From Cymodocea nodosa (Eukaryota; Streptophyta; Magnoliopsida; Alismatales; Cymodoceaceae): a DNA stretch of 64,000 nt. Position numbers and translations under genes: made by a program. The stretch lies in the NCBI GenBank assembly GCA_036874045.1, contig JAZBRI010000009.1:992001-1056000 (forward strand). Reading direction: 5' to 3'. The notes beneath the pieces were generated by a model that had not been told where the DNA came from, did not search any database, and worked only from the letters and a program-made list of their open reading frames with translations. Of this stretch, positions 4,432 through 60,322 are shown one piece after another. Position 1 is the stretch's first letter. Every line of letters begins with the position of its first letter.

Positions 4432-4733
4432 TGTTTAGAATGAAAAAGTACATAATATTAACGGTTAAATGATAGTTAATTGCATAATATTTAGCTTATC
4501 ATATGAGAATTAAGCCATTATGTTATAATTGCACTGTTATATGCTTTAATGAAAGAATCTACATAATTTTAAGGAATTAACGTTAATTAAGTATATTTTC
4601 TGAATTGTCGGTGAATTATAGGTTTTTAATTCTAAAGTATCCGAATTGTCTGTTATTTTGGAGAGTTACATTTCATGTACTAGACAGTTATGTTTTAAAT
4701 GCCTAAAGAATATTTTATTATTTCCTAGAGTAC
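4432..4733 (+). mobile_element. Left LTR of element 2, first fragment
   Basis: 302 bp from the LTR start TGTTTAGAATG to 'cctagagtac'. The same sequence in element 0 (1-80) continues 'agtacatgtgttgaaacc', and that continuation is found at 20553. The fragment is therefore the left half of an LTR split by element 1. Confidence 0.85.
4729..4733. repeat. Target site duplication AGTAC of element 1 (left copy)
   Basis: AGTAC at 4729-4733 and again at 20553-20557 flank element 1 exactly at its TG and CA ends. The uninterrupted site is visible in element 0 near 72-78. Confidence 0.9.
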
Positions 4734-4777
4734 TGTTTAGAATGAAAAAGTGCATATTATTAATGGTTAAATGATGG

Positions 4778-6157
4778 TTAATTGCATAATATTTAGCTTA
4801 TCATATAAGCATTAAGCCATTATGTTATAATTGCACTGTTATATGCTTTAATTGAAGAATCTGCTTAAATTGGGGGAATTAATGTTAATTTAGTACATTT
4901 CTGAACTACCGGTAAGTTGCAGGCTGTGAAATTCTTAAGTACCTGAATTTTCTGATATTTCGGACAGTTATGTTTAACATACCGAACATATTTGGACAGT
5001 TATGTTTAACAGACCGAACATGTATCAGATAGTTATGTTTAAATTACCGAACAGTTATGTTTTGAGAGAATATTTTATTATTTCCTGAAGTACATGTGTC
5101 AAAACCATAATGAATGACTTAAGTGAACTTTCGATGAGTTATCTATAACTATCAGAAATTGCAGTTGGGCATCGAATAGTTATCTTTATAACTCTCCAAA
5201 ATCTCTTTTTATTTATAAAATAGCTGAAGACACGTCATGTTCTAAGAAAGTGACTTAAGTGGATTTTCGGTGAGTTATCTATAACTGTTCGAAATGCATC
5301 TGAGCATCGGATAGTTAGTTTTGTAACTCTCCGAATGTTATTTTATGATTAAACTACTGCTGACACGTGTCGAGATCTGGTAGATTTACTTAAGTTATAT
5401 ATCAATGAGTTATTTGTAACTATCCGAAATGCACCTGAGCATCGGATAGTTAAATTTATGCACGTGTTAATTGCATAATATTTAGCTTATCATATAAGCA
5501 TTAAGCCATTATGTTATAATTGCACTGTTATATGCTTTAATTGAAGAATCTGCTTAAATTGGGGGAATTAATGTTAATTTAGTACATTTCTGAACTACCA
5601 GTAAGTTGCAGGCTGTGAAATTCTTAAGTATCTGAATTTTCTGATATTTCGGACAGTTATGTTTAACATACCGAACATATTTGGATAGTTATGTTTAACA
5701 GACCGAACATGTATCAGATAGTTATGTTTAAATTACCGAATAGTTATGTTTTGAGAGAATATTTTATTATTTCCTGAAGTACATGTGTCAAAACCATAAT
5801 GAATGACTTAAGTGAACTTTCGATGAGTTATCTATAACTATCAGAAATTGCAGCTGGGCATCGGATAGTTATCTTTATAACTCTCCGAAATCTCTTTTTA
5901 TTTATAAAATAGCTGAAGACACATGTCATGTTCTAAGAAAGTGACTTAAGTGGATTTTTGGTGAGTTATCTATAACTGTTCGAAATGCATCTGAGCATCG
6001 GATAGTTAGTTTTGTAACTCTCCGAATGTTATTTTATGATTAAACTACTGCTGACACGTGTCGAGATCTGGTAGATTTACTTAAGTTATATATCAATGAG
6101 TTATTTGTAACTATCCGAAATGCACCTGAGCATCGGATAGTTAAATTTATGCACGTG
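4778..6157. repeat. Tandem direct duplication of about 690 bp inside the left LTR of element 1
   Basis: Unit 1 is 4778-5466 and unit 2 is 5467-6157. Both run from 'ttaattgcataatatttagc' to 'tttatgcacgtg'. They differ by only a few substitutions and a 2-bp indel (acacgtcatg versus acacatgtcatg). The units follow each other directly, and after unit 2 the normal LTR sequence resumes. I see it only in this LTR. Confidence 0.9.
4961..5058. repeat. Short tandem repeat, about 32-bp period (copied again at 5650-5747)
   Basis: Three and a half diverged copies of a unit of the form 'cggacagttatgttta' followed by 'accgaacat'. The array lies inside the duplicated 690-bp segment and so occurs twice. The corresponding part of the other Athila-like LTRs has one copy or none. 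Confidence 0.75.
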
Positions 6158-6445
6158 TTGAATTTAAATGCTTTAGTATATCACGTGAGATGCACATGTT
6201 TAACTCGTTAAGTTAGCATAACTGTACGTGTTGAGTTACATGAATATACACTAAGGTAATGCATTATGTTAGCAGCTTATTTCTTTATATTTTCTAATAT
6301 GCCACTGTAGCGGTTGTAGGAACAAACAGTTGGAAGAGAAAAACCACGTTTGCACGTATCGCGTAGGGAAAGAAATCATCGCCGTTGATATGAATGAAGG
6401 AAATCCAACCGACCATTCAAGCAGAAGCAGTTACTACTAAAGAAA

Positions 6446-6453
6446 TATAAAAG
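6446..6453 (+). promoter_or_regulatory. TATA box of element 1 left LTR
   Basis: TATAAAAG in 'agaaatataaaagaaaag', at the position conserved in all LTR copies of this family. Confidence 0.65.
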
Positions 6454-7492
6454 AAAAGAAGGAAAAAGAAGAAGTGTGTGATTGATGGGCGGACAATGTG
6501 TGTAGAGGAGGATGAGTGTTGCAATTCTCTGAAGTTCCACACCAACCATCATCATCACCACTATAATCACCAACTATCGGAGGTTTGTGAGGATACTTGC
6601 TTGATGTCGGGTCGATTGCGAGCCAAACATAGTGCCTGACAACCACTGTGAGGAGTGATCGTGTCGCGGGAAGGGAAACCATTTTCACTAAGCGTCGACT
6701 CATATTTCAGGAGATCGTAAAGCTTTTAGCCTTGGCTTTGGGTTGATGCCTATATGTTGAAGAGGAGATCATCTTGCAATTCTGGACTCGCGATTCTATA
6801 GGGAGAGGAGACAAAATTGTAAGTGGTTTAATTTTCAGTGGTGTAATCGCGTTGCAAGTAGTGTCGAAAGTATTTACTGTCAAGTGAGATTACTTTACAT
6901 TTCACCTTTCTCCCATTTCCATGTTCATATTAAAACAAAAATACCAAAAACAATTTATCTATGTTTGTATGTTGTATTTGAGTGTTGTATTGTTTGTGTT
7001 GTATCGTGATTAATGTTATCTTTGTCAGTGTTGTGATTGTTTTATGTTTATTTTAGTTTTACAGTTTACTGAAATTGGTTCGTTCAAAAGACTTAAAGAT
7101 TTTAATAGTTACTGTTTAAATTATCTGAATGTTAGTATTGCTTAATGATAAATCCAATGTTAACTAACATTAAAGAGCTTAATTGATGTTATTTACAATA
7201 TGTGGAATTGCCCAATGGTTGGCCGAATTCTTTTGTAAATAGCAGCATTAAAAAGAAAAGATAGGCTCGTGGAGTTAACTTAAGTCCATGAGGTTAGTCC
7301 GTTTAGTTAGCCATAACTCAACGAACTTAGTTCGTTGAGTTAACTGTAATTCAACTGAGAGTTTATTGAATATATAAATTTGATTATTAACAAATGAACA
7401 GTTCTTCAGCAATTCCCTGTGGGATCGACCTGTACTTACACACTAATACAATAGACACTATGCACTTGCAGTTAAAGTACAAATTGGAATTA

Positions 7493-7686
7493 CTTCTAGT
7501 GTATACCAGGCCATTTGAGTGTCCATTGAGACTCATATGTTATCACCTCCATGGATACTCCTGGTGTATACCAGGTTGTTTGAGTGTCCATGAAGGTTCA
7601 CCTTCTATCACCTCTAAAGATACTCCTGGTGTTCACCAGGCTGTTTGAGTGTCTAAGGAGGACCCTTAAAAAAAAAAAAAAAAAAG
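7493..7686 (+). mobile_element. SINE-like retroposed insertion with poly(A) tail and 16-bp target duplication
   Basis: The 16-mer gtacaaattggaatta occurs at 7477-7492 and again at 7687-7702, exactly flanking a 194-bp insert that ends in an A-run (7668-7685) plus G. The right LTR of element 1 (around 20405) has the single, uninterrupted target. The insert is mostly three tandem units of about 65 bp, each beginning near 'ctggtgtataccagg' (able to fold as CTGGT/ACCAG) and containing 'tgtttgagtgtc'. I see no convincing pol III A box; 'ggttcacc' near 7588 is only a weak B-box resemblance. It could be a SINE or a retroposed transcript of unknown origin. Confidence 0.8.
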
Positions 7687-7840
7687 GTACAAATTGGAAT
7701 TAATATCTAAATTGTATTAAAAGTTGTTTGTTTACTTCTAAAAGAAAGAATAGGCATAAAGATAAATTAACTAAGTAAAAATAGAAGTAACAAATCCAAG
7801 TTTTTCTAGTGTAATGCTGGGAAAACGCAAACAAGTTTTA

Positions 7841-7858
7841 TGGCGCCGTTGCCAGGGA
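7841..7858 (+). other. Primer binding site, tRNA-Asp type
   Basis: tggcgccgttgccaggga lies 7 bp after the LTR end. Plant tRNA-Asp has a 3' end complementary to TGGCGCCGTTGCCGGGGA, so this is a one-mismatch primer site of the kind typical of Athila elements. Confidence 0.9.
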
Positions 7859-7947
7859 ATCAAATTGAATTGAATTAACATAAGTAACTGTTAGAGCTAT
7901 TTCGTTTTAATAGCTAGAGTTATGTGTTTTCTTCTATAATTAAGAAT

Positions 7948-9363
7948 ATGGCATATGCTTATGCTCAAAGATTTCTGAAACCTGTAGTTAGCATATGTGA
8001 ATTCTGCAATTCTGAAGGATACGACATTTTTGACTGTTTGAAACTGAGACGTTTGTAGATGATTAGATCCCATGAACAACAAATGAATTATCCTCAATAT
8101 AATAGAGCCGAGTATGAGAATCTTATAGTTTACCCAACTGATGGTCAGTATAGAATGTGTAATATGTTGAGAGACACTGAAGTTTGGGATAGGTATGACA
8201 GACTAGAGCATGGTATAGAGAAAAATCTGGATAAACTGGAATACTTTGTGTGTGAACAACAAGAAGTCAACCAATTAAACTATAAGGAATCATATTTAGA
8301 ACCTAAAAAGGATATAATTTACGAAACTGAAAAATCCATAATGAAAATTGATCAAAAATTGAATGCAATGAGATTAAATGATCTGGAAAGAAAATTAAAA
8401 GCATTAGACGAATATACAATGAAAATACAAGTTATGCAATAGGACAACGAAAAATATAATGTTATAAACATGCATAATTTGCAAAATATATAGCAAACAG
8501 AAAATACTAATGCAAGAGAATTTAAAGAATGCACTTTAAAACTAAAAACAATTGAAGATCATAATCACAAAAATGATATACAAAAACATCATGAGAGTAA
8601 CGAAGATCTGGAAGATGTATGTATAACATTAAGATCTGGAACTGATATACCACCAAGAACTCAAAATGAAAATGATATGAAGGTGGATATGAGTAAAAAT
8701 CAAAATGATAATGAAAATGTAATAGCTGAAAATCTAGAAATCACTGAAGAACAATCTGAATCTACGAATGAAGCTAAAAATGATCAGACAAATCAACTGA
8801 AAGAAAAAAAGTTTTTGAAATCAAAATCTTTAGCACCCTATCTTGAAAGATTACAACAAACAATACCTGAAAAACAAGAAAAAATCAGAGAAATTTTTGA
8901 AAATGTACAAGTTAACATTCCTTTGTTAGATCTATTGCAGAAAATGCCTCCTTATGCTAAATTTCTGAAGGATTGGTGTACTAAGAAAAGAGAGCGAAAA
9001 GTTCTTAGAAATGTCATTTTAGCTGAGCAAAGTAGTTCCCTATTTCTGCCACAAATTCCTAAAAAGTTATCTGATCTTGGAATCTCTGTTATATCATGCA
9101 CCATAGGAAATACCATTCTAGAAAGAACCTTAATAGACTTAGGTGCAGGTATAAATGTTATGCCAAGTGATATATTTGCATCCTTAGGATTAGAAGGCTT
9201 AACTCCTACTAGTACGGTTATTCAATTAGCTGATAGAAGTATAAGATACCCTAGAGGAAAAATAGAGGATGTCTTAATTAAAATTAAAAATTTTATATAT
9301 CCTATTGATATTGTAATTTTGGATTCCCAACAAATTAAGCATAAAAATAGTGATAATCTTTAA
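7948..9363 (+). pseudogene. 5' ORF of element 1: zinc-knuckle segment plus aspartic protease
   Basis: One reading frame runs from ATG 7948 to 9363 with three in-frame TAG codons (8056, 8440, 8491). Residues 1-37 hold a nucleocapsid-like knuckle, CX2CX4YX4C, with Tyr where His is expected. The stretch to about residue 210 is polar, acidic and partly coiled-coil, and includes an 'LRSGT' motif usual before the Athila protease. The rest matches the Athila PR region: 'KMPPYAKF', 'CTIGN', and an active-site stretch with Asp-Leu-Gly-Ala followed by 'NVMPSDIF' and 'LADRSIRYPRG'. A frameshift at about 9363 moves the 'LGRPFLAT' motif into the next frame. The gag core normally expected upstream of the knuckle is absent here. 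Confidence 0.85.
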
Positions 9364-9365
9364 TT

Positions 9366-10730
9366 TTGGGAAGGCCATTTTTAGCAACATCAGGGGCTGT
9401 TATAAATTGTAAAACTGGAGTAATGAAGTTAGCATATGATAATGCAGATACTCAATTAAATATTTTCAAACTAGAAAGGTTTGAGGAGTTAGAAATGTCC
9501 TTACATACGATAGACTTTTTAGAGGATGAAGGAGATATGTTAGATGACGTGATTCAAGAAGAATTAAATAGACAAATCAATTCTGAAATTTTAGAAGAAA
9601 GTGAAAGCATAAATATAGGAGATCGGGAAGAAATTAATTTAGAAAATGATGATGTTCAATTAGGAGCTCTAGCTTCTGATGGGCAGCATTTAGAATTAAA
9701 ACATTTACCTCCTGAATTAACCTATATATTTCTGGAAGATAAACGAACCTATCCAATCATTATTGCTTCAGATTTAAAAGAGGATCAAATAGCTAAATTA
9801 AAAGATATAGTAAAAAGTTATAAAGAAACAATAGGATGGACTATGACTAATATAAAAGGGTTAAGTTCAACTTTATGCTGTCACCACATATATTTAGAAG
9901 AGAATGCTAAACCTATTAGAATTCCTGAGAGGAGATTAAATCCAAACCTTAAAGAAGTAGTCAGGAAGGAAATAGTTAAATGGTTAGATAATGAGATAAT
10001 TTATCTGATTTCTGATAGCTCGTGGGTTAGTCCAATCTATGTAGTTCCCAAGAAATCAGGATTAACAGTTATTAGGAATGAAAGTCAAGACTTGATACCT
10101 ACTAGAATTCAATCAGGCTGGAGAGTATGTATAGACTATAGAAAGCTAAATGCTGTGACTAGGAAAAATCATTCTCCCTTACCTTTTATAGATCAAATGC
10201 TGGAAAGATTAGCAGGGCAAGAATATTTTTGTTTCCTAGACGGTATTCAGGGTATAATCAAATTCCAGTAGTATTAGAGGATCAAGAGAAAACAACTTTC
10301 ACCTGTCCTAATGGAACTTATGCTTTTAAGAGAATGCCATTCGGATTATGCAATGCGCCAACTACCTTTCAAAGGTGTGTGTAGGGCATATTTACTGGAA
10401 TGACTGAAGATTTCTTAGAAATATTTATGGATGATTTTACTGTATATGGCAACTCATATGAAGTTTGTTTAAGCAATTTAGACCAAATATTAAAACGCTG
10501 TGTGGAAAAAAATCTGGTTTTAAATTGGGAAAAATGTCACTTCATGGTTAAACAAGGAATAGTCTTAGGGCATGCTATTTCTAAGAAAGGGTTGGAAGTA
10601 GATAAAGCTAAAATAGAAGTAATTTCTAATCTACCAGAACCTAAATCAGTAAAAGATATTAGATCATTTCTAGGACATGCTGGTTTTTATAGAAGATTTA
10701 TTAAAGACTTTGGCAAGATCTAGACCTTTA
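9366..10730 (+). pseudogene. pol: Reverse transcriptase of element 1, two frameshifts and a stop
   Basis: The frame from 9366 carries 'LGRPFLAT', a linker, then the RT domain: 'WVSPIYVVPKKSG', 'GWRVCIDYRKLN' and 'FCFLDG'. At about 10241 one base is missing, so the following 'YNQIPV' is read in another frame. That frame continues through 'MPFGLCNAPTTFQ', a TAG at 10381, the catalytic FMDD (about 10426) and the '[13 protein letters not shown]' motif, before a second frameshift near 10715. Order and motifs are those of Ty3/gypsy Athila RT. The enzyme would copy the element RNA in the cytoplasmic particle; this copy cannot make an intact protein. Confidence 0.9.
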
Positions 10731-12305
10731 ACTAATCTATTAAAAGATGTTCCATTTAACTTTGATAAAAATTGCAAGGAAGCATTTTTCAGACTTAAGA
10801 GTAACTTAATTTCAACTCTTATAATTCAAACACCTGATTGGAACCATCCATTTGAATTAATGTGCGATGCTTCTGATTTTGCTATAGGAGCAGTGTTAGG
10901 ACAGAAGATAGAAAAATCTCCTAGAGTGATTCATTATGCAAGCAAAACCTTAAATGATGCTCAAGTTAATTACACAACTACTGAAAAAGAATTATTAGCT
11001 ATTGTGTTTGCTTTAGAAAAGTTTAGATCATATCTGATTGGAGCTAAAGTAATAGTATACATGGATCATTCAGCTCTAAAACATCTAATAAAGAAAAAAG
11101 AAACTAAACCTAGATTGATCCGATGGATATTATTATTGCAAGAATTTGATCTAGAAATTAAAGATAAAAAAGGTTGTGAGAATGTAGTAGCAGATCATTT
11201 ATCAAGATTACAAATAGAAAAATCAAATATTGAAATTAAGGATAATTTTCCTAATGAACAATTAATGACCATCAACACAATGCCTTGGTATGCAGACATA
11301 GTTAATTACTTAGTTACTAGTCTAACACCTAAGGATTGGAGTAGACAGGATAAGAAATTGTTTTTCTCAAGAGTAAAATATTACTATTGGGAAGACCCAT
11401 ACCTATTTAAGAAATGTCCTGATATGGCTTTAAGGAGGTGTGTTCCAGAAACTGAACATCTGAGCATATTGTCTTTCTGTCATGACCAAACTTGTAGAGG
11501 GCATTTTGGTTCAAGGAAAACTGCTGCAAAAATTCTGCAATGTGGGTTTTATTGGCCAACACTATTCAAAGATGCTCATAAATATTGCTTAAGTTGTTTA
11601 AGATGTCAACAAATAGGAAGAATATCAAAGAGGAATATGATGCCTCTTAATCCTATTGTTGAGGTTGAAATCTTTGATGTGTGGAGAATAGATTTTATGG
11701 GTCCATTTCCTATGTCTAATCAATTTAATTACATATTGTTGGGGGTGGATTACGTATCTAAATGGATAGAAGTTATTCCTACAAAAACTAATGATAACAA
11801 AGTGGTAATACAATTTATAAGAACAAATATATTTGCTAGATTTGAAATACCTAAAGCTATTATCAATGATAAAGGAATTCATTTCTGTAATAGAAGTTTT
11901 GAAGCCTTAATGAAGAAATATAGAGTAAACCACAAAATTGCAACATCATATCATCCGCAAACAAGTGAACAAGTAGAAAGTGCAAACAAACAAATTAAAT
12001 TAATCGTAGAAAAAGTAGTAAATCCTACTAGAACAGATTGGGCTAATAGATTGATAGATGCACTTTGGGCTTATAGAACTACTTATAAAACGAGCTTAGG
12101 TATGTCACCTTTTAGGCTAGTATATGGAAAAAGTTGTCATTTACCTGTTGAAATAGAACATAAAGCTTATTGGGCATTAAAAACTCTGAACACTAATTTA
12201 AATCAAGATGCTGAAAATAGAAAAATGCAATTAATTGAATTAGAAGAATTTAGAAATGAAGCTTATTCGAATACTATAAGAGAAAAAGAAAAAATTAAAT
12301 TTTAG
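10677..12305 (+). CDS. pol: RNase H and integrase portion of element 1 pol, open for 542 codons
   Basis: An open frame covers the end of RT, RNase H ('[11 protein letters not shown]', '[19 protein letters not shown]', '[10 protein letters not shown]'), then integrase. The integrase zinc finger is visible as '[12 protein letters not shown]' with a later CX2C ('CLSCLRC'). The catalytic triad lies in 'WRIDFMGPF', 'IINDKG' and the Glu of '[11 protein letters not shown]', and '[22 protein letters not shown]' follows. The ATG at 10677 is internal to RT, so this is a fragment of a larger polyprotein, not an independent gene. It ends at a TAG (12303) where 'FW-HDRK' would be expected, a likely TGG-to-TAG change. 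Confidence 0.85.
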
Positions 12306-12587
12306 CATGATAGAAAAATTATTCCTAAAAGCTTTGAAATAGGACAAGAAGTATATCTTTATATGGCTAGACTCCATAACCATCTGGGAAAATTGAAATC
12401 TAAACGGGCAGGACCTTACATAGTTCGAAATGTTTATCCTTATGGAGCTATTGAAATTGAAAATCCTAAAAATCAGAATATATTTAAAGTAAATGGACAA
12501 AGACTTAGACTTATTCTGAAAACACCAAAAAGCTCCTTTGGAATTATGGAAGAAATCAGAGTAGAGGACTACTCGAGCTTTACTTAG
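12303..12587 (+). pseudogene. pol: Integrase C-terminal tail of element 1
   Basis: After the TAG at 12303 the same frame continues through a conserved basic tail ('GKLKSKRAGPYIV', 'NGQRLRLIL') that matches the end of gypsy integrases (GPF-type region) and stops at 12585-12587. It is joined to the preceding integrase by a single suppressed or mutated codon. Confidence 0.8.
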
Positions 12588-13158
12588 TAAGAAATCAGTT
12601 TTTATCTTTATAAAAAAAAAAAACATTAAAAATATATATAAAACATAAAAATCATTGCGGTTCAACTGACTGGAACCATCAATATGATCGGAACATAAAA
12701 ATATATGTATATTAATTTTTAGAAAAAAATGTTGGTTTTACCGAAACATAGTATCGGTTCAATCGAAAGAAAAAAAAATAATTTAGGTCTGACCGAAACA
12801 TAGTATCGATTAAACTGGTAAAAAAAATAGAAAAACTATTCTCTGTAATATTTTTATTATTATATTTGCTTGTACGGGGAGTCCATTGAGTTACACTTAA
12901 CTCAACGAGCTTACTCTTTTGAGTCTTGAGCTAGTCAACGAGCTTATTCTGTTGAGTTAACTGTAACTCAACGGAGTACTATAGCTAAGACCGTGAATAA
13001 AATAGTAATAGTTGGTTCAGGAAATGACCCGATTACCCGCCTAAACTTAGGGCTTATTTAAATTAAAACCTAGGGTTTTGGGGGCATTATCCGGTAAATC
13101 ATTTAGAATCTAGAACAATAGAAATCAGAGCGATTTCGTGCTGTTGTGTAACTCCACG
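12588..13158. other. Non-coding spacer between pol and ORF P (element 1)
   Basis: AT-rich. It contains several copies of a 'tcggttcaaccgaaacata'-like motif (12655-12815), then inverted Athila-type words such as 'gttgagtta' and 'taactcaacg' (12885-12975). A TATA-like 'gcttatttaaatt' near 13050 lies about 110 bp before the ATG of ORF P and is kept, with changes, in element 2 (near 25695). No gene is seen. Confidence 0.6.
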
Positions 13159-15348
13159 ATGAGGAAGATGAAGCCTAAATTCTAGGAAGAGGTAGTGGAC
13201 ACCGCACAGTTTTTGAAGGAATTTGAAGAATGACAGACGAGGTAGAAGATCAGAAATACAACAAGAGAGAAAGAGCTACAAAAGGTAGAATTAGAACTCT
13301 TTAACTTGAGAAAAATTTTGGTTAAGTTAGAAATACAAATACCACAAATAATGGAGACACGAATTAGAGTGGCAACTGAAATTACAGTAAGTAAAGAAAG
13401 AAAGATACAGCCGAACAATGAAGTAGCCCTAGAATTAATCCAACGTAAGTCTCAGCTCTGGCTCAAAAGATGAATCTGTAGACGAGCTAAATGGGTGATC
13501 TGGGAGCAAGAAAGGAAAGAAAATGAAGAAGAGGAAACTAAAGGACAAGAGGAGTCGATTGCCGAAAGACTTGTTCTTGAGGAGCAGCATCCTGGACCTT
13601 CAAATCCACTTCCTAAACCATTAGAAAGGTTAGTAGTTATGGGGCTTTCAAACGAAGAAGAAATAAGAGAATTTGAAGAACTGGTTCAAGTTGGAAAAAA
13701 CCAAGGAGAATCAAAAGATTTGGCAGTGGCTAAAGCACACCTAGTGTTTGATGCACTTTACAAAAAGAGGGCTGCAGAAAAGTTGAAAAACCAATATAAA
13801 ATCAAAGTGGAATAGCATCAAGAAGTTATTGCCAAACCTGCTGCAAAAGGAGATGAAGCTGGTCCTTCAAGACCAGCAGTTATAAAAAAAGTTAAATAGG
13901 AAGACTAGTACTTGTGGCTCAAAGGCCTGCAGAGCCTACTTTTGTAGATTTAATTTCAGAAGATGAAGAGGAAGAACAAGCACAACTAATTAGAAAAAAG
14001 AAAGGAAAAGAAAAAGTGCCTAAATATGAGGAAATTAAATCTGAAGTACCAATTTTTACAAGGCCTGTGGAGTAGATTTTTATTAACCTGTTATCCGATT
14101 CTAAGGAGGAGCAAGAGGAGCTGCAATAGCAGGAGCAAAGAAAAGAAAAAAATCAGGCTAAAATTAGTCTGTAGTCTATACAAGAAGAAACAGAAATTAG
14201 GGTAGAAACTAAATTGCCCATGACTCCATCCCAATCTGTTATAGAATCAGAAAGAACAGTAACAGAACAAATTGGTAGTCAGGAGGAAAAAGAAAGAGCA
14301 GAAAATGAAGAGGCTGAAAGAAGCCATTTGGACAAAAATAATTTTACAAATTCCATTGAAGAACAAGAAACTCTTCAGCAATTTATGGAGGGAATTTAAG
14401 ACAGAGTGGAGAGTTCTGCCGGCTCTCCACCACAAACAGAAACAGAAATTCAGGAATCTGTAGAAAATATTCAAATGCAGCCTATAGAAGAGGAAGAGCA
14501 AGAGAAAACCCCTCTAGAGCAACAAAGTCACCTTCCTGACCCGATTGAAACAACAATTTTGAATGAAGTACATTTTTGTAGTCAGGAAGCTTATACCAAA
14601 TACAAAGAAATAAGGGGTTACGACATTATTTACAGTAGACCAGTAAATTGGGATGGAATGCAAGAAATCAAAGATTTATTTGAATTCCAAGGTCTACTAC
14701 AATTCATTTCTCAAGAAAGAGGGCATGTAGTATATGGGAATTTAGTGCCCTGTTTTTATGCAAATTTAAGAGAAGGAGAAAGAGGATTAATTTCCAACGT
14801 GGAGGAAGCTGATGTACAGATAACACCAGAGCTTCTCCACAACATTTTTGGTTTAAAGAATGAAGGAATAACAATTTTGGAAGATACAACTATAGTTGAA
14901 TGGACTGAACAGCAAGTTAAGGATTGTTTAGCTATCAATCCTGGTGTGCCATTATTAAACAGATTGAAGAATTTAAATGGTAAAGCACACATGGTAGCTA
15001 ACATTCTGATTAAGAATGTCTATCAACGATAAGGCTATGATATAGAATTAAGTCAATTTGTCAAATGGGCCAACAGTTTTTATCTCCAAGCTGAAAACAA
15101 TGAAGAAGAAATTATTTTATGGAGATTTGATTCCACTGTTGATGGTGGACTGTATCGATTTCACGAAATGTACATCAAAAAGGATCAGATCTAGAACCAT
15201 TTCAGTGAAAGAATACAGAAATTTTGTAGCTACAGAACTAGCTGTACCTTCTAGAGGAATTACAAGAGCAGTAGAAAGGATTAATCAATTAGAGCTTCAA
15301 TTAGAAAAACTCCAGAAGGAAGTAGATGAACTTAGGCATAGAGATTAA
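13159..15348 (+). pseudogene. ORF P of element 1: accessory protein in the env position
   Basis: About 730 codons from ATG 13159 to TAA 15346-15348. The first part is charged and helix-forming; the middle is very Glu-rich and low in complexity; the last third (from about 14550) is a conserved globular region with 'DLFEFQGLLQFIS', 'FYANLREGERGL', 'ITPELLHNIFGLKNEG' and, in element 3, 'INWSAIFISKLR'. A short coiled coil closes it. This region resembles the domain annotated in plants as ATHILA ORF-1 or 'putative plant transposon protein' (resemblance by motif only; not searched). In-frame stops at 13183 and 13228 sit where Trp is likely (TGG to TAG or TGA), and there are at least two frameshifts. 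Function unknown. A homologue lies in copia element C. Confidence 0.8.
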
Positions 15349-16237
15349 ATTGTATTGTTTGTCTACTTGTATAAAATTGTATGATGTACTTGTAATGTAA
15401 TTGATTCATATTAATGAATGTAAATTTTTCGGATGCAATTTTCATACGTGTTTTGGATGTGAAATGAATGGAATTTATTGAATATTATGTCATTGTGGAA
15501 CTTTTTGAATGAATATGTAACCGATTTACAATTTGCTGAATGACAGGATAACTGCTTAAAAATTTCTACATGTTGTAAGGTAAAATGTAAATTCTGCATA
15601 ACATAAAATGACCTGCAAGTTAAATCTTTATATAAGGTTCAGATTTAAATGAATTTTAATCAAAATGATGCATTAATGACATAGATTTAACTTTATTTCA
15701 GTTAGTAGAATGAAAAAGAAAAAAAAAACTGAGAGGAACTTACGAGAGTAAAACTTAGAAGTTGCCAAGTATTAACTCAACGAAGTAAGTCCGTTGAGTT
15801 AAACGTAACTCCACGAGGTTAGTAATATAATATAAGATCACTTCGTTGAGTTATCACTAACTCAACGAAGTTAGTTCGTGGAGTTAACAATAGTAATCGA
15901 TTGTATTCTGTTGAGTTATCTGTAACTCAACGAGGTTAGTTCGTGGATTAAGTAGAACAGTTATTCTTTTAACCACGAACGAAACTTCATTGGTTTAGCG
16001 GTTACCAAAATTTGAAATTAGTAGTGGTACACGTACCCATAAAAACAGGAACCACGATGCACATTGCAAGCCACGTTCTTGCAATGAGATTTATTCACTT
16101 TATAGATGTGTAGTATATATATAAAACAGAATGTTATTTACGAGTTACCGGCACTTTTAAAAGAAAGGAGAATGCGTTGGAGGAACTGGAAGGAGAAGTA
16201 GTTGATTCAACTTCATCCGACAATAAATATTTATTGA
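15349..16237. other. Spacer between ORF P and F-box ORF, with candidate internal promoter
   Basis: AT-rich to about 15760. Then comes a cluster of hairpin-forming words (15770-15960, ttcgttgagtta / taactcaacgaa). From 15970 to 16237 the sequence aligns with the same place in elements 2 (28730-29000) and 3 (61940-62210, complement). No gene is seen. All three copies have 'aacagaatgttattta' just after a TATA-like stretch. Confidence 0.65.
16114..16126 (+). promoter_or_regulatory. Candidate TATA box for an internal transcript
   Basis: TATATATATAAAA lies about 120 bp before the F-box ORF start. Element 3 has TATAAATATA at the same place (62056-62065, minus strand); element 2 is degraded there. 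The conserved flanks suggest an internal promoter that would produce an mRNA starting just upstream of the splice donor. The promoter role is an inference. Confidence 0.45.
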
Positions 16238-17404
16238 ATGAAAAGCTTCAGACTGAATCGACAAATGGAATTGATGCAATTACCGTTGGATGCACTAAGG
16301 GAAGTACTAAGTAATTTGTCAGCTAAAGATATGTGCAGGCTGTGTTATATATCAAAGGAAATTAAAAACTGTATTGAAGAAAAATATTTTCAGGGACTAC
16401 AAGCTGCAAAAATGACTAAGATTAGAGATGGATTCATATGGAGGTCATTTAATCGTAGTTCAATTAACCATGAATATCTGGCTATGGAAGAAACTACTGG
16501 AATTCCACCCAATGCATTAGAAGGAATAGATCATATTATGGGGATAGATGAAAGATTAATCATATACAAGACGAGACCAAGGTATGTAAGTTTATTATTA
16601 CCTGATATTTTGATAAGAAATCCTATAACAGGAGAAGAATGGAATATAGGAAGACCTAATAGATTTGAAGCACCAACTGTAAATTGTGGGTCAGCTTTAA
16701 TATTTTCTGATAAAAATTCAGCAATTCCTGAAAAATTATATTATTGGAGACCTATAGGAAATTGGGGTGAAGATTTACGCTTAAGTGTGTATAATTTTTT
16801 GAACAGATCTTGGAATGAAAATATTATGATATATCTAGGACAAAAATCATTAATTAACCAAACACATGTCATACTTGATGGATATATATATCTAGTCACA
16901 GAGATATCAATAGCATATGGATCTGATTTATACATAGTCAGCATAGACAGTTATGATGAATATATAGAAATTTTATGTGTATTGAGTGAAATAGCTAAAC
17001 CACCATCTGTAGAATTTAATAAAATTCAAATAGGAATGTGGTATAATGAAGAAGATGATCCTACTTTATGTCTGATAAGATGGTGGGATGAACTGATGAA
17101 ATTTCAAATATGGATTATGAAAGACATAAATGAATGGAAGTGGGAAGAGGAGTATATTGAAATAGATGTAGAAATAGAAACTGCTACATTACCTTGGAAC
17201 CAAAAAGGATCCCTTTCTGCATTTCATATCATTAATGGTAATACACTTGTATTTGGAATTTATAATATATTACATGTTTACAAATTAAGAAGGAACAAGA
17301 ACTACATTAAAACAGAATTAATAGCAAGAAGAACTATGCCTAAAAAGTTTGCTTGGACTGACACGCTTATTCCATTTGTTTTTACTTTTCAATCATGTTC
17401 TTAA
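16238..17404 (+). CDS. F-box / F-box-associated protein carried by element 1, intact
   Basis: 388 codons, no internal stop. Residues 10-50 are an F-box ('MELMQLPLDALREVLSNL', 'KDMCRLCYISKEI'), which in known proteins binds SKP1 in SCF ubiquitin ligases. The rest resembles the plant F-box-associated domain: 'ILIRNPITGEEWNIG', 'FQIWIMKDINEWKWEEEY' and a C-terminal 'LIPFVFTFQSCS'. The first nine codons (MKSFRLNRQ) come from joining two exons: bases to 16255 match the exon upstream of the intron in elements 2 and 3, and bases from 16256 match the exon after it. It lies in the env position, downstream of ORF P, in the same direction. Its openness contrasts with the broken pol of the same element. 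A target for ubiquitination cannot be read from the sequence. Confidence 0.85.
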   Translation: MKSFRLNRQMELMQLPLDALREVLSNLSAKDMCRLCYISKEIKNCIEEKYFQGLQAAKMTKIRDGFIWRSFNRSSINHEYLAMEETTGIPPNALEGIDHIMGIDERLIIYKTRPRYVSLLLPDILIRNPITGEEWNIGRPNRFEAPTVNCGSALIFSDKNSAIPEKLYYWRPIGNWGEDLRLSVYNFLNRSWNENIMIYLGQKSLINQTHVILDGYIYLVTEISIAYGSDLYIVSIDSYDEYIEILCVLSEIAKPPSVEFNKIQIGMWYNEEDDPTLCLIRWWDELMKFQIWIMKDINEWKWEEEYIEIDVEIETATLPWNQKGSLSAFHIINGNTLVFGIYNILHVYKLRRNKNYIKTELIARRTMPKKFAWTDTLIPFVFTFQSCS

Positions 17405-18896
17405 GCTGTGATTTTGTGTGTTTAATGTTGTGTGTATTTTGCATTTATTTTTAGAAAAAAAAATATAGTTTTCATTTTATTTTATAAAAAAAAAAAAAAT
17501 ATCAATCTAGTTTGTTGGTATCTGTTCTGGGAAACCAACTAGCTTGCTTGTGAGCCACCAAAGGCATAGGAGCCTAGGTTCCACACAAGACATTGATTTA
17601 TTAATATTTGTTAAATGTTATTTTGTTTTATATTTTGCTTTTATCTATGAATGAAAAGTTTTTTAGAATCAAAAATCGGAATATGCAGAAGGAGATACAA
17701 ATGAAACAAGGTATGTAACTAATTACTCATCTTGAATTTTAAATCAAACAAAACTGTATTCATGCCTGCTACAATTACTATACTTATTGTCAAATCTTTT
17801 ACATTGAGGACAATGCAAAATGTAGGTATGGGGGGGAGGTAATTGAAGTAACAGCCATGTAAGTTTGTTAATTAAAGAAATTAAAATAGTACTGCAAAGT
17901 TTTGAGGAAATTGAAAAATTTATGAACTTGTTGTAACTATCTGATAAATGAGACTATAAAATTTTTATAAATTACTTGAATGTTATATTTAGAAGGCTAT
18001 ATAAGATGCTATTGAATTTACTATTTATGCAAATCTAGATATAGTATCTTATGTTTTTTCTGAATTTCATGAGTTTAACAATTTCACGATTTTAAAATGA
18101 AATCAGAATGCTTAATGAAAAAATCAGTAAATTATCTGAAGTCCTGAAAGAGCTGAGATGTGAATTCTAGATTAAATGAAACACATATGATTAAAGATAC
18201 ATTTAATTTGACTGATTGAACTTGTAGAATGATTTATGTGTAGATCTTATTAAACTACAGAAAAAGTATGAGCTTATTGTTATGGATTCATATTTTCAGT
18301 AAATGATAGAAGCAGAACTATATGAGATTGGTGTTTTACTACATTTGTATTAATGAAATACATACATATATAGTATGTGATTAATGTTTTGTTTTGTGTT
18401 TGTAGTTTGATTGAAAGAAAAAAAAAAAAAAAGGGAAAATTTTGAGAGTTTATTGACTTGTTTGATCACGAGCCTTTTGTACTTGAGCAGATAGGTATGT
18501 AAGGATTGTTGACCTGAACAAGGACTCTTGAAATCTGGCAACTTAAGATCTTGATCAGATCTAGGATTGTTGATTGAAAGCTCGTTACATGGGTACATTA
18601 GAAAGCTCTTGTATGATTCAAGCTTGTCAAATTAACTTTTAAAGTATGAAAAAAAAAAAAACATATATTGTTCTGAAAAGATAAAAGTGTTTTGTGAAAT
18701 ACAGATATCTTATGAATCGAGTATATTTTTTGTTATCTAGAATTGCTATAATATGAATCTAGAATTGACTTTTGAAGTTGTTTAATGGAGATACAATTTT
18801 TATTCTACTTGTCTTAATCAGATTGAATTGGATTGTACTTTGATTCGTATATTTTTGAAATTTCCTCTAGAAATCTAACTATTCGAATTGAATTGG
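17405..18896 (+). other. 3' non-coding region of element 1
   Basis: Aligned with elements 2 and 3 over most of its length. Notable blocks: 'ccaccaaaggcataggagcc' (17556-17575), 'cattgaggacaatgcaaaat' leading into a polypurine tract (17825-17840), and a strongly conserved block at 18465-18640 that also occurs in copia element C. Four A-runs are present. The region joins the LTR at about 18897 without a polypurine tract, because the start of the right LTR is missing. No gene is seen. Confidence 0.75.
17825..17840 (+). other. Internal polypurine tract
   Basis: 'ggtatgggggggaggt', preceded by 'ttgaggacaatgcaaaatgta'. Equivalent tracts are at about 53575 (element 2) and 58663 (element 3, minus strand). 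Many Athila-type elements have such a tract near the 3' LTR; here it is far upstream of the LTR, and element 3 has a second tract directly at its LTR (57358-57369). Confidence 0.55.
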
Positions 18897-20552
18897 AAAG
18901 TGACTTAAGTGGATTTTCGGTGAGTTATCTATAACTATTCGAAATGCATCTGAGCATCGGATAGTTAGCTTTGTAACTCTCTGAAATGTTATTTTATGAT
19001 TAAACTACTACTGACACATGTCAAGATCTGGTAGATTTACTTAAGTTATATATCGGTGAGTTATTTGTAACTATCCGAAATGCACCTAAGCATCAGATAG
19101 TTAAATTTATGCACGTGTTGAATTTAAATGCTTTAGTATATCACGTGAGATGCACATGTTTAACTCGTTAAGTTAGCATAACTGTACGTGTTAAGTTACA
19201 TGAATATACACTAAGGTAACGCGTTATGTTAGCAGCTTATTTCTTTATATTTTCTAATATGCCACTATAGCGGTTGTAGGAACAGACAGTTGGAAGAGAA
19301 AAACCACGTTTGCACGTATCGCGCAGGGAAAGAAATCATCGTCGTTGATACGAATGAAGGAAATCCAACTGACCATTCAAGCAGAAGCAGTTACTATTGA
19401 AGAAATATAAAAGAAAAGAAGAAAAAAGAAGAAGTGTGTGATCGATGGGCGGACAGTGTGTGCAAAGGAGGATGAGCGTTGCAATTCTTTAAAGTTCCAC
19501 ACCAACCATCATCATCACCACCATAATCACCAACCATTGGAGGTCTGCGAGGATACTTGCCTGATGCCGGGTCGATTCCGAGCCAAACACAGTGCCTGAC
19601 AACCACTGTGAGGAGTGATCGTGTCGCGGGAAGGGAAGCCATTTTCACCAAGTGCCGACTCATATTTCAGGAGATCGTAAAACTTTTAGCCTTGGCTTCG
19701 GGTTGATGCCTGTATGCTGAAGAGGAGATCATCTTGCAATTCTGGACTCGCGATTCTATAGGGAGAGGAGACAGAATTGTAAGTGGTTTAATTTTCAGTG
19801 GTGTAATCGCGTTGCAAGTAGTGTCAGAAGTATTTACTGTCAAGTGAGATTACTTTACATTTCACCTTTCTCCCATTTCCATGTTCATATTAAAACAAAA
19901 ATACCAAAAACAATTTATCTATGTTTGTATGTTGTATTTGAGTGTTGTATTGTTTGTGTTGTGTCGTGATTAATGTTATCTTTGTTAGTGTTGTGATTGT
20001 TTTATGTTTATTTTAGTTTTACAGCTTACTGAAATTGGTTCGTTCAAAAGACTTAAAGATTTTAATGGTTACTGTTTGAATTATCTGAATGTTAGTATTG
20101 CTTAATGATAAATCCAATGTTAACTAACATTAAAGAGCTTAATTGATGTTATTTACAATTTGTGGAATCGCCTAATGGTTGGCTGAATTCCTCTGTAAAT
20201 AGTAGTATTAAAAAGAAAAGATAGGCTCGTGGAGTTAACTTAAGTCCACGAGGTTAGTCCGTTGAGTTAACTGTAATTCAACTGAGAGCTTATTGAATAT
20301 ATAAATTTGATTGTTAACAAACAAACAGTTCTCAAGTTCTTTCGCAATTCCCTGTGAGATCGACCTGTACACTGATACAATAGACACTATGCACTTGCAG
20401 TTAAAGTACAAATTGGAATTAATATCTAAATTGTATTAAATGTTGTTTGTTTACTTCTAAAAGAAAGAATAGGCATAAAGATAAATTAACTAAGTAAAAA
20501 CAGAAGTAACAAATCTAAGTTTTTCTAGTGTAGTGCTGGGAAAATGCAAACA
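18897..20552 (+). mobile_element. Right LTR of element 1, lacking its first ~510 bp
   Basis: Homology to the left LTR starts at 'gaaagtgacttaagtgg' (compare 5243) and runs to the end GCAAACA, immediately before the target duplication AGTAC. It carries neither the 690-bp duplication nor the SINE-like insert, so both arose in the left LTR after insertion, or were lost here. Confidence 0.85.
19406..19413 (+). promoter_or_regulatory. TATA box of element 1 right LTR
   Basis: TATAAAAG in the family-conserved context. Confidence 0.6.
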
Positions 20553-21957
20553 AGTACACATGTTGAAACCTTAATATATAACTTTAGTGGATTTTCGGTA
20601 AGTTATCTGGTAACTATTTGAAATGCATCTGAGCATTAGATAGTTAGGTTTGTATGTATTCGAAATATTTGAACTCGTTAAGTTAGATTTATGCACATGT
20701 TGAATTTAAATACTTTATTATGTCATGTGAGCTGCACATGTTTAACTCGTTAAGTTAGCATAACTATATGCGTTGAGTTGAATATACACTAAGGTAACAC
20801 GTTGTGTTAGTGTTATAGCTTATAAGTTTTTCTTTGTTGCACGTGTTTTATAGTTAAATCAACAAAGTAAGTCCGTTGAGTTACACTAACTCCATGGACC
20901 ATTTATTTTCTAACATGCCATTGTAGTAGTTGCATAAATAGGAAATTTGAAGGAAAACCACGATTGCATGTATCATGTAGGAATTCACTTATGGAATGAA
21001 GAGGAAATCACCATCATTGATATGAATGAAGGAAATCCAACCGATCATTTAAGTAGAAGCAGTTACTATAGAAAGAAATATAAAAGAAGAGGAGAAAGAC
21101 AAAAAAAAAGTGTGCTGTATGGGTGGAGGACCATGCTAACTACAAGAAGCATTGGAAGTTCCCTGAAGGTCCACACACCACCAAAATCACCAACCATTGA
21201 AGGTCTGTGAGGATAATTTCCAGATGTCGGGTCGATTTCGAGCCAAACATGATGATTGACAACCACTATGAGGAGTGATCGTGTCGCAAGAAGGGATGCC
21301 ATTTTCACCAAGCACCGACTCATATCTCAAGAGATCATAAAGCTTCTAACTTTGGTTTCGGGTTGATGCTAGTATGCTGAAGAGGAGATCAACTTACCAT
21401 TCTTGGTTCATGATTCTATAGGGAGAGGAGGCAAGATTTTAAGTGATTAAGTTTTTAGTGGTGTAATCGCGTTGCATGTAGTGACGAAAGTTTTTACGAT
21501 TGATAGAGATTTTTACATTTCACCCTTTGCTCATCTTCAGGAACATATCAAAACAAAAATATCAAAAACAACTAATTATATGTTTTTACATTTAGTATTA
21601 AAGTGTTGTATTGTTTGTTTTGTATCGTGATTAATATTATCATTGTTAGTATTGTGAATGTTTTATGTTAGTTTGATTCAGAAAATAGAAAATAGTTTTA
21701 TTGTTTATTGAAATTGATTCCTTCCAGATACTTAAATATTTAATGGTTACTATTTGAAATATCTAAATGTTAGTGTTGCTTAATGATAAATCTCAGATTA
21801 ACTAACATTAAAGAGCTTAATTAATGTTATTTACATTCTATGGAACCGTCCAATGGTTGGCCAAATTCCTTTGTGAATAATAGTGTTTAGTTGGAAAGGT
21901 AAACTCGTGGAGTTAACTTAAGTCTATGAGGTTAGTCCGTTGAGTTAACTGTAACTT
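20553..21957 (+). mobile_element. Left LTR of element 2, second fragment
   Basis: It resumes with the duplicated AGTAC and 'acatgttgaaacctt', exactly the sequence that should follow 4733. The LTR then continues to 'gagttaactgtaactta' and is cut off, joining RT sequence at 21958. The last ~500 bp of the LTR are missing. Confidence 0.85.
21079..21086 (+). promoter_or_regulatory. TATA box of element 2 left LTR
   Basis: TATAAAAG in 'gaaagaaatataaaagaag'. Confidence 0.6.
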
Positions 21958-29016: not shown

Positions 29017-30137
29017 GTGTGTAATTAATCTTCTGCAATTTTACTTTATGTTAAGAGTTTATGAGCACATGGACTTATTCTCCTAGCACTAAACGATTAG
29101 TAAGAACACTTAGACTAGATTATTCAACACAGAGGCGTACTAAAACATTTTCTGAATTGGACTTTAATGAAATCCTTAGGGGTGTAGCTAAACTTTCTTT
29201 AAAAGAGAACGAAGATATGGCTGCTCTAGTAGAAAAACTATTAGGGAAAATTTTGTATCCTGAATTAGTTGATGAACCTTCATGTATTCGATTGTCAAAC
29301 TTTGAGGGGGATATGTTTGAACTAAAATCTAATTATATTAGTTAATTGCCACACTTTCATGGATTAGAAAGAGAAGATGCTAATTATTTTCTTAGAGAAT
29401 TTAACGAAGTTTGTCAAATGATGAAAATGCCGAACATGAGTATTAATGCTATTAAACTTAGATATATTCCTTTTGCTTTAAAAGACACAACTAAGAGATG
29501 GTTATATACTCTATCACTTGATTTAATTTCTGCTTGGACTGAATTTTAGTCTATTTTTCTGGAAAAATATTATCCAACACATCAAACGATTAAAAAGAAA
29601 TAGAAAATATTAATGTGTAGCTAAAAGCAAGGAGAATCATTTTGAAAATATTTTGAATGATTTAAAGATTTACTAACTCAATGTCCACATCATGCAATGA
29701 GTAAAGCACAATTAATAGGTATAATTTATGAAGGCATAGATGTTTCAACAAAATCTTTATTAGAATCTACTTGTCAGAATGAATTTTTAAAATTATGTAG
29801 TAAAAAAGCATGGGCATACTTAGAAAACTTTATAAAAAGAACTACATAGTGGGAAAACTCGGTTGAAGCTATTACCGATAAAATAGTATTGCCAAGGGGA
29901 ATGCATGAAATAGATTCAAGCACTATGCTTGAAGTTAAATTAACTGAGTTAACAAAGAAAATTGAGGAGTTATCATTAAATCAAAAACTAGCAAATAAGA
30001 ATGTAAATATTAATGACTTAGATATTATTTATGTTAGAAACTAGAAAGATAACTTTGGAAATTCTTATAACCCTAATTAAAGAAATCACTTAAACCTATC
30101 TTGGAGAAATAATAATTTCTAGGGAGGAGAAAATATA

Positions 30138-30442
30138 TGTTATGCCAAGAGAAGCGCGGAAAGGGAGAAGCTTGGACTCATGGAGAAGAAAGAAGAAGAC
30201 AAATGGGAAAGACGTGTGAAGCAAATGCAAAAACACCAAGGTTTAACGTGGTTCCCCAATTGGGTACGTCCACGGATGGAGCTCAACTGAATGATTCTCT
30301 AGGTGATCACAAAGGGATACAAGATTCAACATTAACTCTAAGCACATGTTGGGGGTCTATTTATAACATTTGTGTACCCCCAAGTGGCTAAGGACAAAAC
30401 TACCCTTATGTGTAACAAACTAATTCAAGACACATAATAACA
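30138..30442 (-). mobile_element. 3' LTR of copia A
   Basis: 305 bp, TGTTATG...AATAACA, identical in layout to 35490-35794. Because the element is on the minus strand, this is its 3' LTR, next to the purine tract. Confidence 0.93.
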
Positions 30443-30517
30443 ATCTCCACCTTGCCTTGAATTTACAAACTCCGCCTAGAACCAAAACAAATTTCCATCT
30501 TCAAAAGACCCGAAGGG

Positions 30518-33500
30518 TCAACTATAAGCAAACACATTAAGTAAGTCTAAGCAATGCTTAAACTTGCTTTCAAGAACGCCTTTCGTAAACATATCGGCTG
30601 GATTGTCATGTGTGTTGATCTTCAAAATCTTCACGCAATCTTCTGTTCTAAGAAAGTGATAACGAACATCAATGTGCTTTGTCCTATCATGAAACACATT
30701 GTCCTTCGTTAAGCTGATGGCACTGAGACTGTCACAGAAAATTTCTGCTTTATCATATCATAGACCAAAGTCTCCAAGTAACCCCTTCAGCCAAATACCT
30801 TCTTTTGCAGCTTCTGTCATTGCCATATACTCAGCCTCTATGGTGGATAAAGATACAATAGGCTGTAGAGTAGATTTCCAACTAATAATGGAATCTGCCA
30901 ATGTGAAGACATATCCTGTTAAGGATCTATGCTGATCAACATCACCTGCAAAATCTGAATCAGAATATCCAGCTATTCTACAGTTATGTTTAACACCATA
31001 AATCAGTCCTACATCAGACGTGCCCTTCAAGTACCTAAAGATCCTTTTCACGGCCTGCCAATGACTCTTCCCTAGATTTGACATAAACCTGCTTACAACA
31101 CTAAGAGGGTAAGCAAGATCCGGACGAGTACAAACCATGGCATACATAAGACTGCCAACTACCTGTGAATATGGAACTTTCTTCATGTACTCTTTTTCAG
31201 ATGGCGTCTGAGGTGCCATAGCAATTGATAATCGCAGGTTCCTATCATAGGGCGTTCCGATGGCCTTGCTTGAAGCCATGCCAAACCTGCTCAAAATCTT
31301 CAGAACATAACTGTGCTGATGGAGAAATAATCTTCCAATGTTCCTGTCACGATAAATCTCCATCCCAAGGATTTTACCTGCCGATCCTAAATCCTTCATT
31401 GCAAATTCAGATTTCAATGTGTCTTTCAAAACCTGTATTTCATTGACATCTTTGGCTGCAATCAAAATGTCATCCACATACAAGAGCAAGTAAACAAATT
31501 CTTCTTTAATTTGTTTAATATAGACACATGAATCAAAACTACTTCTAACAAAACCAACATCAGTGATAAAAGAATCAAATCTTTTATACCACTGCTTGGG
31601 AGACTATTTCAACCCATACAAAGATTTCTGCAGCTTACAAACGAGGTCTGATCTACCACTTTCTGCAAAACTTGTTGGCTATTCCATCTAGATGTCCTCA
31701 TCTAAATCACTATGCAAGAAAGCTGTTTTCACATCCAACTGTTCAAATTCTAAATCCTTTATTGCAACAATTGCCAAAAGGACTTGAATGGAGGTGTGTC
31801 TAACTACTGGAGCAAAGACTTCATTGAAGTCCACACCCTCCTTCTGTGAAAACCCTTTTGCTACCAATCTTGCCTTATATTGTATTCCAAGGTTGCCCTG
31901 TGTTCCTGATTTCTTTTTGAACACCCATTTGCAACCAACAATATTCCTATCCTTGGGACGTTTTACCAACTCCCAAGTCCTATTCTTATGCAAAGATTGT
32001 AGTTCTTCTTGCATAGATCCCAACCAATGTACGGCTTCTGGTCTGCTAACGGCAGCATCAAAACTAGGTGGGTCAGCATCCTCCACCTCACTAGCTACCT
32101 ATAGGGCAAAAGCGACCATATTATTGTAGCCATACCTATGTGGAGGGTGAACATCCCTCTTAGGACGATCTCTAGCAACACACCTTGAACGTGTGTCCTC
32201 AACAAATTCATCTCCTTGATCTTCTTCTAAAATCAAACGTTGATCTGTATCAACAAGAACAGACTGATCAGATATCAACGATTGATTCAAATCAAGCTCC
32301 ACCTGCTTAGGAGTACTAGGTGAATTCAAAATAGTTGGGTTTTCTTTCTTGTGCATCAAAGAAACCTCATCAAAGGTAACATCCCTGCTATGAATGACCT
32401 TTCTTGTTTATTTATCATATATCCTATATCCTTTTACTCCCATTCTATATCCCACAAATATGCCTTCCTTGGCATGCGGCTCCAATTTACCATGATTCAT
32501 ATGGTAATACGCAGGACATCCAAATACTTTCAATTTGGAATAGTTAGCCGCTTTATCCATCCATACTTCATAAGGGATCTTGTTGCCAATTGCATTGGAT
32601 GGCGACCTGTTCACCAAATAGGAGGGTGTGTTAACAGCTTCAGCCCAAAAACATTTTTCAAGCTCAGCATGAGAGAGCATACACCTAGCTCTGTCCAACA
32701 ACGTCCTATTAAGATGTTCTGCAACTCCATTCTGTTGTGGAGTTCCCTTGACAATATAATGCCTAGTTATGCCTGCATCTATGCAAAAAATGTCAAATTC
32801 ATTTGAGCAAAATTCTAAACCATTGTCTGTTCTCAAGTATTTTACTTTCCTCCCTACTTGGTTTTCAACAATAGCCTTCCATTGTTTAAAGTTCTTGAAG
32901 GCTTCACTCTTATGTTTCATAATGAAAATCCAAGTCATATGACTAAAGTCATCAACAATGGAGAGAAAATACTTAGAACTTGCTAAAGAGAGTTGTTGAG
33001 ACGGTCCCCAACAATCTGCATGGACATAATCCAACTTTCCCTTGGTAGAATGTTTTGCTCTTCCAAAGGAAACACGTTTCTGTTTCCCATAGATACAATG
33101 CTTGCATAAATCAATATTTGTAAAGATATGACCATCTAACCTACCAAGCATACTGAGCTTCTGCATTCCCTTTAGGCTCAAATGTCCTAACCTGGAATGC
33201 CAAATAGCTGACATAGACTGTTGATCACTTATTGTCGCAACTACTGATCCAATGATAAGTTTGCCCTGAAGAATGTATAAAAGTTCATCCTTGATTCCCT
33301 TCATTACTACTAGGGAACCTTTCAAAATGTGAAGTTTACCTCCTCCACCTGAAAAACTGAAACCTTTCTAATCAAGAGCCATTAGTGAAATAAGGCTCTT
33401 GCCTAACCTTGGCACATGCCAAACATTCTCCAAGACTTTGATCGTCCTATCATGCATCCTAAATCTGACAGATCCAACACCTGTTCTGTCACAAACATCA

Positions 33501-35487: not shown

Positions 35488-35489
35488 CT

Positions 35490-40254: not shown

Positions 40255-40256
40255 AG

Positions 40257-60311: not shown

Positions 60312-60322
60312 CTGTTGTGATT

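Follow-up and report, generated by a model that had tools for sequence, protein, structure and literature searches.

Copying of spliced RNA into new genomic insertions is described for the SD'/SDARE system of MLV, in which packaging and reverse transcription of a spliced genomic RNA give rise to a defective integrated element (PMC2925334). For Diaspora, a soybean relative of Calypso, the authors proposed in 2005 that anomalous splicing together with reverse transcription removed env in a single step, and both Calypso and Diaspora carry a primer site of the tRNA-Asp type (PMC1142308). In BARE1 and BARE2 of barley, splicing adjusts Gag, and BARE2, which cannot make Gag, is packaged by BARE1; attempts to amplify copies of the spliced BARE RNA from barley DNA were unsuccessful (PMC3735527). 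Ogre, a plant Ty3/gypsy element, has a functional intron between Gag and Pol (PMC12786077, PMC9289625, PMC3735527), and a 2025 review describes plant LTR elements as generally free of introns, with Ogre and EVADE as the exceptions (PMC12786077). An extra ORF beyond gag-pol, env-like in Bagy2 and Athila, is also found in the orchid 2-ODD Gypsy, and Bagy2 transcripts are spliced (PMC7264820, PMC9289625).

We analysed a 64,000-nt stretch of Cymodocea nodosa DNA (the window; positions 992001-1056000 of contig JAZBRI010000009.1) with three copies, elements 1, 2 and 3, of a Ty3/gypsy-type family in which a splice-bordered segment is either present (intron-plus) or absent (intron-minus). Our results make it very probable that intron-minus copies arose by reverse transcription of spliced element RNA, in one event or, most likely, in several; the mode itself, in which RNA is copied after splicing, is known, but its setting here would be new, and the gene order is unusual. 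As in MLV SDARE, spliced RNA would have been copied into an integrated defective element, but MLV is a vertebrate retrovirus with a different intron, and its case was shown experimentally, whereas ours is drawn from genomic copies (PMC2925334). Diaspora is likewise a Ty3/gypsy element, and its tRNA-Asp primer site may be a second likeness; there, however, env was considered the lost gene, with no intron-plus parent presented in the available part of the source, whereas here it is the capsid that is missing, and intron-plus and intron-minus copies occur side by side, and Diaspora has its gag, with a zinc finger, upstream of pol (PMC1142308). The route proposed in 2005, by which reverse transcription of spliced RNA removes coding sequence in a single step (PMC1142308), gains large-scale genomic evidence from this family within one genome. 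Control of Gag by splicing and a Gag-less passenger, as BARE2, would be shared with BARE, which belongs, unlike this Ty3/gypsy-type family, to the Copia superfamily (PMC3735527). The additional ORF is a likeness to Bagy2, Athila and the orchid 2-ODD Gypsy (PMC7264820, PMC9289625), and the presence of an intron in a plant Ty3/gypsy element is a likeness to Ogre (PMC12786077, PMC9289625, PMC3735527). The family differs from Ogre in the site of its intron, which is found not between gag and pol but 3′ of pol, with the capsid part of gag inside it. To our knowledge, the Ogre intron holds no capsid gene. The word 'F-box' is absent from the main text of PMC7264820, PMC11963269, PMC9289625 and PMC12786077, and the literature covered, which is partial, yielded no description of a capsid gene placed within an intron 3′ of pol, nor of an F-box in such an element, a weak hint that this gene order is new to the literature.

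Element 1 is an intron-minus LTR insertion at 4734..20552 on the plus strand, starting with TGTTTAG (4734) and ending with CAAACA (20552), and is abutted on both sides by the target-site duplication AGTAC (4729..4733 and 20553..20557). Its flanks and target look like the LTR of another copy, from window position 67 onward. The 5′ LTR (4734..7833, plus) has an internal duplication of about 690 bp, and the 3′ LTR (18896..20552, plus) is without a 5′ part present in its counterpart. Comparison of 5937-7836 with 18896-20547 gave 77 substitutions over 1643 aligned sites (4.7%, K 0.049) and 266 gap positions, presumably equivalent to about 2-3.5 million years at plant substitution rates. The duplication is a tandem one at 4777-6164, its parts 98% alike, and is absent from the remaining part of the 3′ LTR; a short repeat unit (GTATACCAGG..GTTTGAGTGTCC) at 7500-7670 breaks up the 5′ LTR and is, as judged by eye, absent from the 3′ LTR. 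Directly 3′ of the 5′ LTR region stands the primer-binding site TGGCGCCGTTGCC.. (7841..7858, plus), a candidate for the tRNA-Asp type; Rfam and tRNA scans of the 64,000-nt window gave no match. LTRs, primer site and target duplication are thus present as hallmarks of a Ty3/gypsy LTR retrotransposon, and the order protease, reverse transcriptase (RT), RNase H, integrase fits, with the protease under the Pfam cut-off and the RT identified by eye.

All coding regions of element 1 lie on the plus strand. Right behind the primer site is a nucleocapsid-like region (7948..8676) with a zinc knuckle (7996-8037), in which Y replaces H, and the LRSG motif; it carries a stop. It is followed by an aspartyl protease-like ORF (8677..9363) and an interrupted RT region (9423..10676), in which a Pfam search of the ORF 9423-10271 returned no RT family at E 0.1. 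RNase H and integrase (10677..12305) were recognized by PF17917 (1.3e-37), PF17921 (3.6e-13) and PF00665 (2e-12). Further downstream are ORF P (14475..15032), a TATA-like stretch (16114..16126, about 140 nt upstream of the junction) and an intact F-box ORF of 388 aa (16238..17404), in which the ATG of exon 1 is joined in frame. The F-box domain PF00646 scored E 1.1e-7 and 31.9 bits vs. a Pfam cut-off of 20.5. A palindrome-like word near CTCAACGAAGTTAGTCCGTTGAGTT was noticed by eye in the spacer between ORF P and the F-box ORF (15775-15955), in the LTR (7265-7350) and at the intron end (60400-60440).

The exon-1 end of element 1 (16238..16255, plus) is joined directly to the next exon, homology to the exons of other copies running up to 16255 and again from 16256, with ACTG/AATC at the join. 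A reading made earlier from the window alone (the sequence-only reading) had claimed that the intron is missing exactly from this element, and the base-to-base join bears this out. An LTR insertion that lacks precisely an intron bounded by splice sites is the hallmark of the SDARE-like mode, and element 1 is such an insertion. The intron of element 3 spans 60323..61924 on the minus strand (1602 nt), and its donor GTATGT at 61924 and acceptor ATACAG ending at 60323 were found as previously read. In element 2 the intron covers 29017..37741 on the plus strand, with family sequence at 29017-30137 and about 37391-37741 and later insertions between; the donor is GTGTGT at 29017, and the CTACTAA word said to lie about 20 nt before the acceptor was seen ahead of TATATAG, which ends at 37741. 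Elements 2 and 3 had also been taken for full-length copies, which they are not: both are truncated, LTR sequence passing directly into RNase H at 21956 in element 2 and LTR-like sequence directly into the end of integrase in element 3 (L039). A longer intron-plus copy is present elsewhere in the genome (L053+L054).

Two further insertions, copia-like by eye, were noted in element 2. One lies within the intron (30138-35796), with pol-like ORFs on the minus strand and end repeats (30138-30444 and 35490-35796) that are 97% alike. The other is a long element inserted near the end of the F-box exon (38758-51766); its end repeats (38758-40255 and 50226-51766) are 93% alike, and gag/pol-like ORFs were found at 41037-45535.

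Gene order was examined at five 5′ ends: element 1, L053 (intron-plus), L055 (intron-plus, linked to L021), L056/L051 (intron-minus) and an inverted piece in L049, the 3′ part of which is not in view. The zinc knuckle CX2CX4HX4C was matched in four of them (with the Y for H in element 1) and is broken in L056, and LRSG stands just upstream of the protease in all five. A deletion in L053 fuses the LTR to the knuckle region, so that this copy cannot show what lay between. In the four judgeable 5′ ends (element 1, L055, L056 and the L049 piece), of which only L055 is known to be intron-plus, no capsid domain was found upstream of the knuckle. Although we take the family to resemble the Athila/Calypso lineage, the complete gag 5′ of pol that is a feature of that lineage is therefore absent from these four ends, which have a knuckle without a capsid. 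The capsid domain was found only downstream of pol, in the intron 3′ of ORF P; in element 3 it lies at 61238..61459 on the minus strand (PF03732, E 4.4e-13), and the gag ATG is at 61880, 44 nt past the donor. To call the intron gag-bearing, as the sequence-only reading did, is right for the capsid part; it is wrong for the zinc-knuckle part of Gag, which sits at the 5′ end, upstream of the protease. The F-box exon of element 3 (59172..60322, minus) is broken by stops, and its ATG at 60311 is 11 nt past the acceptor, compared with 9 nt in the element-1 type.

The intron-plus copy L053+L054 gives the order LTR, knuckle, protease, RT, RNase H, integrase, ORF P, intron with capsid, F-box and LTR, in which the F-box is partly deleted; the RT was named from its position and by eye, and RNase H and integrase from Pfam. 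The LTR at its 3′ end (L054, 2818-4640) is followed by a primer-site-like word at 4613, so a further copy in tandem may share that LTR. About 140 nt upstream of the donor, the TATA-like TATAAATATAG has a conservation of 0.97 (interval from -150) vs. an exon mean of 0.94. It might be an internal promoter for the capsid and F-box genes; with conservation so little above the exon mean, this is an idea and not a finding.

Gap-free patterns with up to two mismatches were run on the 374.6-Mb genome (28 contigs). They gave 3167 exon/donor sites, a match that does not prove a whole intron behind it, and 246 precise intron-minus joins (203 of the element-1 type and 43 of the element-3 type), while the reversed-pattern control of each pattern had 0 matches genome-wide. 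Intron-minus copies matched by these patterns number at least 246, element 1 among them. Their share of about 7% (246/3413) is only rough because the patterns are of unequal length; with such copy counts, the rate of spliced-RNA copying by an LTR element becomes measurable. Splice signals were read in the intron-plus loci: GT was found in 26 and GTATGT in 22 of 27 donors, AG is kept in 12 of the 14 acceptors examined, and CTACTAA, CTGCTAA, CTATTAA or a close form precedes the acceptor wherever the sequence shown reaches far enough. For the element-1 type, 12 of 100 listed places of the donor pattern were fetched, and the donor side (TTGAATGGAAAGCTTCA... followed by GTATGT) equals the exon end of element 1 in all 12, which were selected by that pattern. 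The exon-2 start, AATC[G/A]ACAAATGG, was seen in 6/6 places for which the F-box exon was obtained; this side was not selected by pattern.

As gap-free patterns demand an exact join, these counts are no test of precision. We therefore also consider a search with the upstream exon only, where, among the best 30 of 40 listed matches (element 3 included), 27 kept the intron start and three were joined exactly (L012, L018 and L023), all at the same base. Ordinary deletions occur among the same 30 loci, L010 being without intron positions 437-1307 and L014 without the segment from intron 589 to F-box exon 506, and neither uses both splice sites. The exact join was found in element 1 and in 30/30 further intron-minus loci; seven of these (L002-L008) came from a join-spanning query and 20 (L057-L076, fetched from the 43 element-3-type places) from a join-requiring pattern, so that 27 were selected via the join and only L012, L018 and L023 are free of that bias. 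With a slack pattern (0-30 nt at the join, 0 mismatches), 10/10 matches had the exact spacing and no ragged join appeared in that range, although joins cutting into the flanking words would be missed. Ragged copies elsewhere in the genome had been named in advance as the sign that would favour an ordinary deletion, and the retrocopy reading survives this check.

Trees were built from the upstream exon and the F-box exon, without loci repeating a place already included and without the larger pieces L048-L056. The 34-row, 35-row and element-1-type-plus-row trees omit L063, L068, L074, L047 and L075, and the first two also copies having too little F-box exon. Intron-minus copies are present in both subfamilies and interspersed among intron-plus ones. 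A single clade of intron-minus rows was rejected in the 34-row tree (27 rows minus; AU p 9.7e-5) and in the 35-row tree (24 rows minus; AU p 2.1e-5), and in the latter also for the eight element-1-type intron-minus rows (AU p 0.006). The fewest state changes were 4 in an early tree, 14 in a gappy tree, 7 in the 34-row tree, 6 in the tree of element-1-type plus vs. minus rows and 7 in the 35-row tree, of which well-supported branches force 1, 4, 5, 2 and 4, respectively; the last four of these trees are star-like with weak branch support. In three trees the eight element-1-type minus rows formed a pure clade, since the rows came from a join-spanning query and their intron-plus relatives were unsampled. 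The candidate view of the element 1 subfamily as one clade of capsid-less parasites was dropped when newly sampled intron-plus copies fell inside it. The donor pattern with the exon end of element 1 has 1850 matches (up to two mismatches), some possibly of the element-3 type.

Exact joins, two subfamilies and the lack of any ragged join in the slack search support the earlier explanation of element 1 as a retrotransposed spliced RNA, and these observations also bear on its rivals. Removal of the segment from some copies by ordinary deletion, through illegitimate recombination or slippage, keeps next to no probability: L010 and L014 attest such events in the family, but they bypass the paired splice sites, the 246 pattern-matched joins are exact with none ragged within the 0-30 nt slack, and the two intron borders have at most one base in common (by eye). 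It is likewise very improbable that the intron-minus state is ancestral and that the capsid segment was inserted later. Intron-minus copies in both subfamilies would agree with such a gain, as would unrooted trees, for which this genome, the only one used, offered no outgroup; however, no other capsid domain was found in the elements examined, which would leave an intron-minus ancestor unable to move by itself, donor sites number 3167 vs. 246 intron-minus joins, and the scattered intron-minus rows would require many precise gains.

Occurrence in both subfamilies outside one clade means that spliced RNA was copied repeatedly, or that one copy was spread by template switching. The latter, with one spliced founder whose join then entered other backgrounds, is a narrower form of spliced-RNA copying and not an alternative to it, and we regard it as rather unlikely. 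Star-like trees with weak support, and well-supported branches that require no more than 1 to 5 changes, leave room for a single founder, and co-packaged retroelement RNAs are described to recombine (PMC2925334). Against it, element-3-type intron-minus copies have element-3-type bases on either side of the join, and even the element-1-type intron-minus rows, taken separately, are rejected as a single clade, although recombination may produce such a rejection as well. Because recombination of co-packaged RNAs can imitate repeated loss, we give no count, and consider several separate events of spliced-RNA copying likely.

Copying of spliced element RNA could have proceeded as follows. The family would make a full-length RNA with the capsid part of gag downstream of pol, in an intron spliced by the host. 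Unspliced RNA would retain the capsid ORF; the spliced form would be without it and have the F-box start codon directly behind exon 1, so that splicing would exchange capsid for F-box protein. A full-length RNA, once spliced, still has its two ends and its primer site and could thus be packaged, with capsid supplied by other copies, then reverse transcribed and integrated. The outcome would be LTR insertions such as element 1, without exactly the intron and hence without capsid. The anatomy on which this scheme draws was read directly from the copies; from it we infer that the plant splices the RNA, that packaging occurs in trans, that capsid and F-box protein are translated, and that there is a choice between the two. 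The copies examined are old and mostly broken. The P0 protein of some plant viruses is an F-box protein that suppresses host silencing. We suggest, tentatively and with more doubt than confidence, that host splicing acts as a switch, unspliced RNA giving capsid and spliced RNA an F-box protein, perhaps a silencing suppressor, so that each packaged spliced RNA would become a capsid-less passenger. If so, the family would steadily generate its own parasites.

Coding constraint was evaluated by comparing dN/dS in frame with that in wrong frames. Values of 0.35-0.61 for gag and the F-box had been considered as evidence of selection and were rejected by this control. For gag, dN/dS was 0.38 in frame vs. 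0.34-0.74 in wrong frames. For the F-box it was 0.50 vs. 0.40-0.65 in the element-1 type, 0.43 vs. 0.43-0.58 in intron-plus copies and 0.43 vs. 0.49-0.69 between the two groups, in the last case the lowest of six by a narrow margin. Fixed differences in the F-box were distributed 27/14/29 over the codon positions (p 0.058; vs. private changes, p 0.19); L045-L047 were omitted from the F-box rows of both tests. The F-box frame is stop-free in three of eight element-1-type copies (element 1, L002 and L004). A protein search with the F-box ORF gave 1170 candidates, none at E 0.001, and comparison with solved structures gave one match at E 0.5. ORF P, present in the window at 14475-15032 and 62906-63439, has no relative in the Pfam search, and with a dN/dS of 0.27 in frame vs. 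0.47-0.90 in wrong frames (7 copies) it is under clear constraint.
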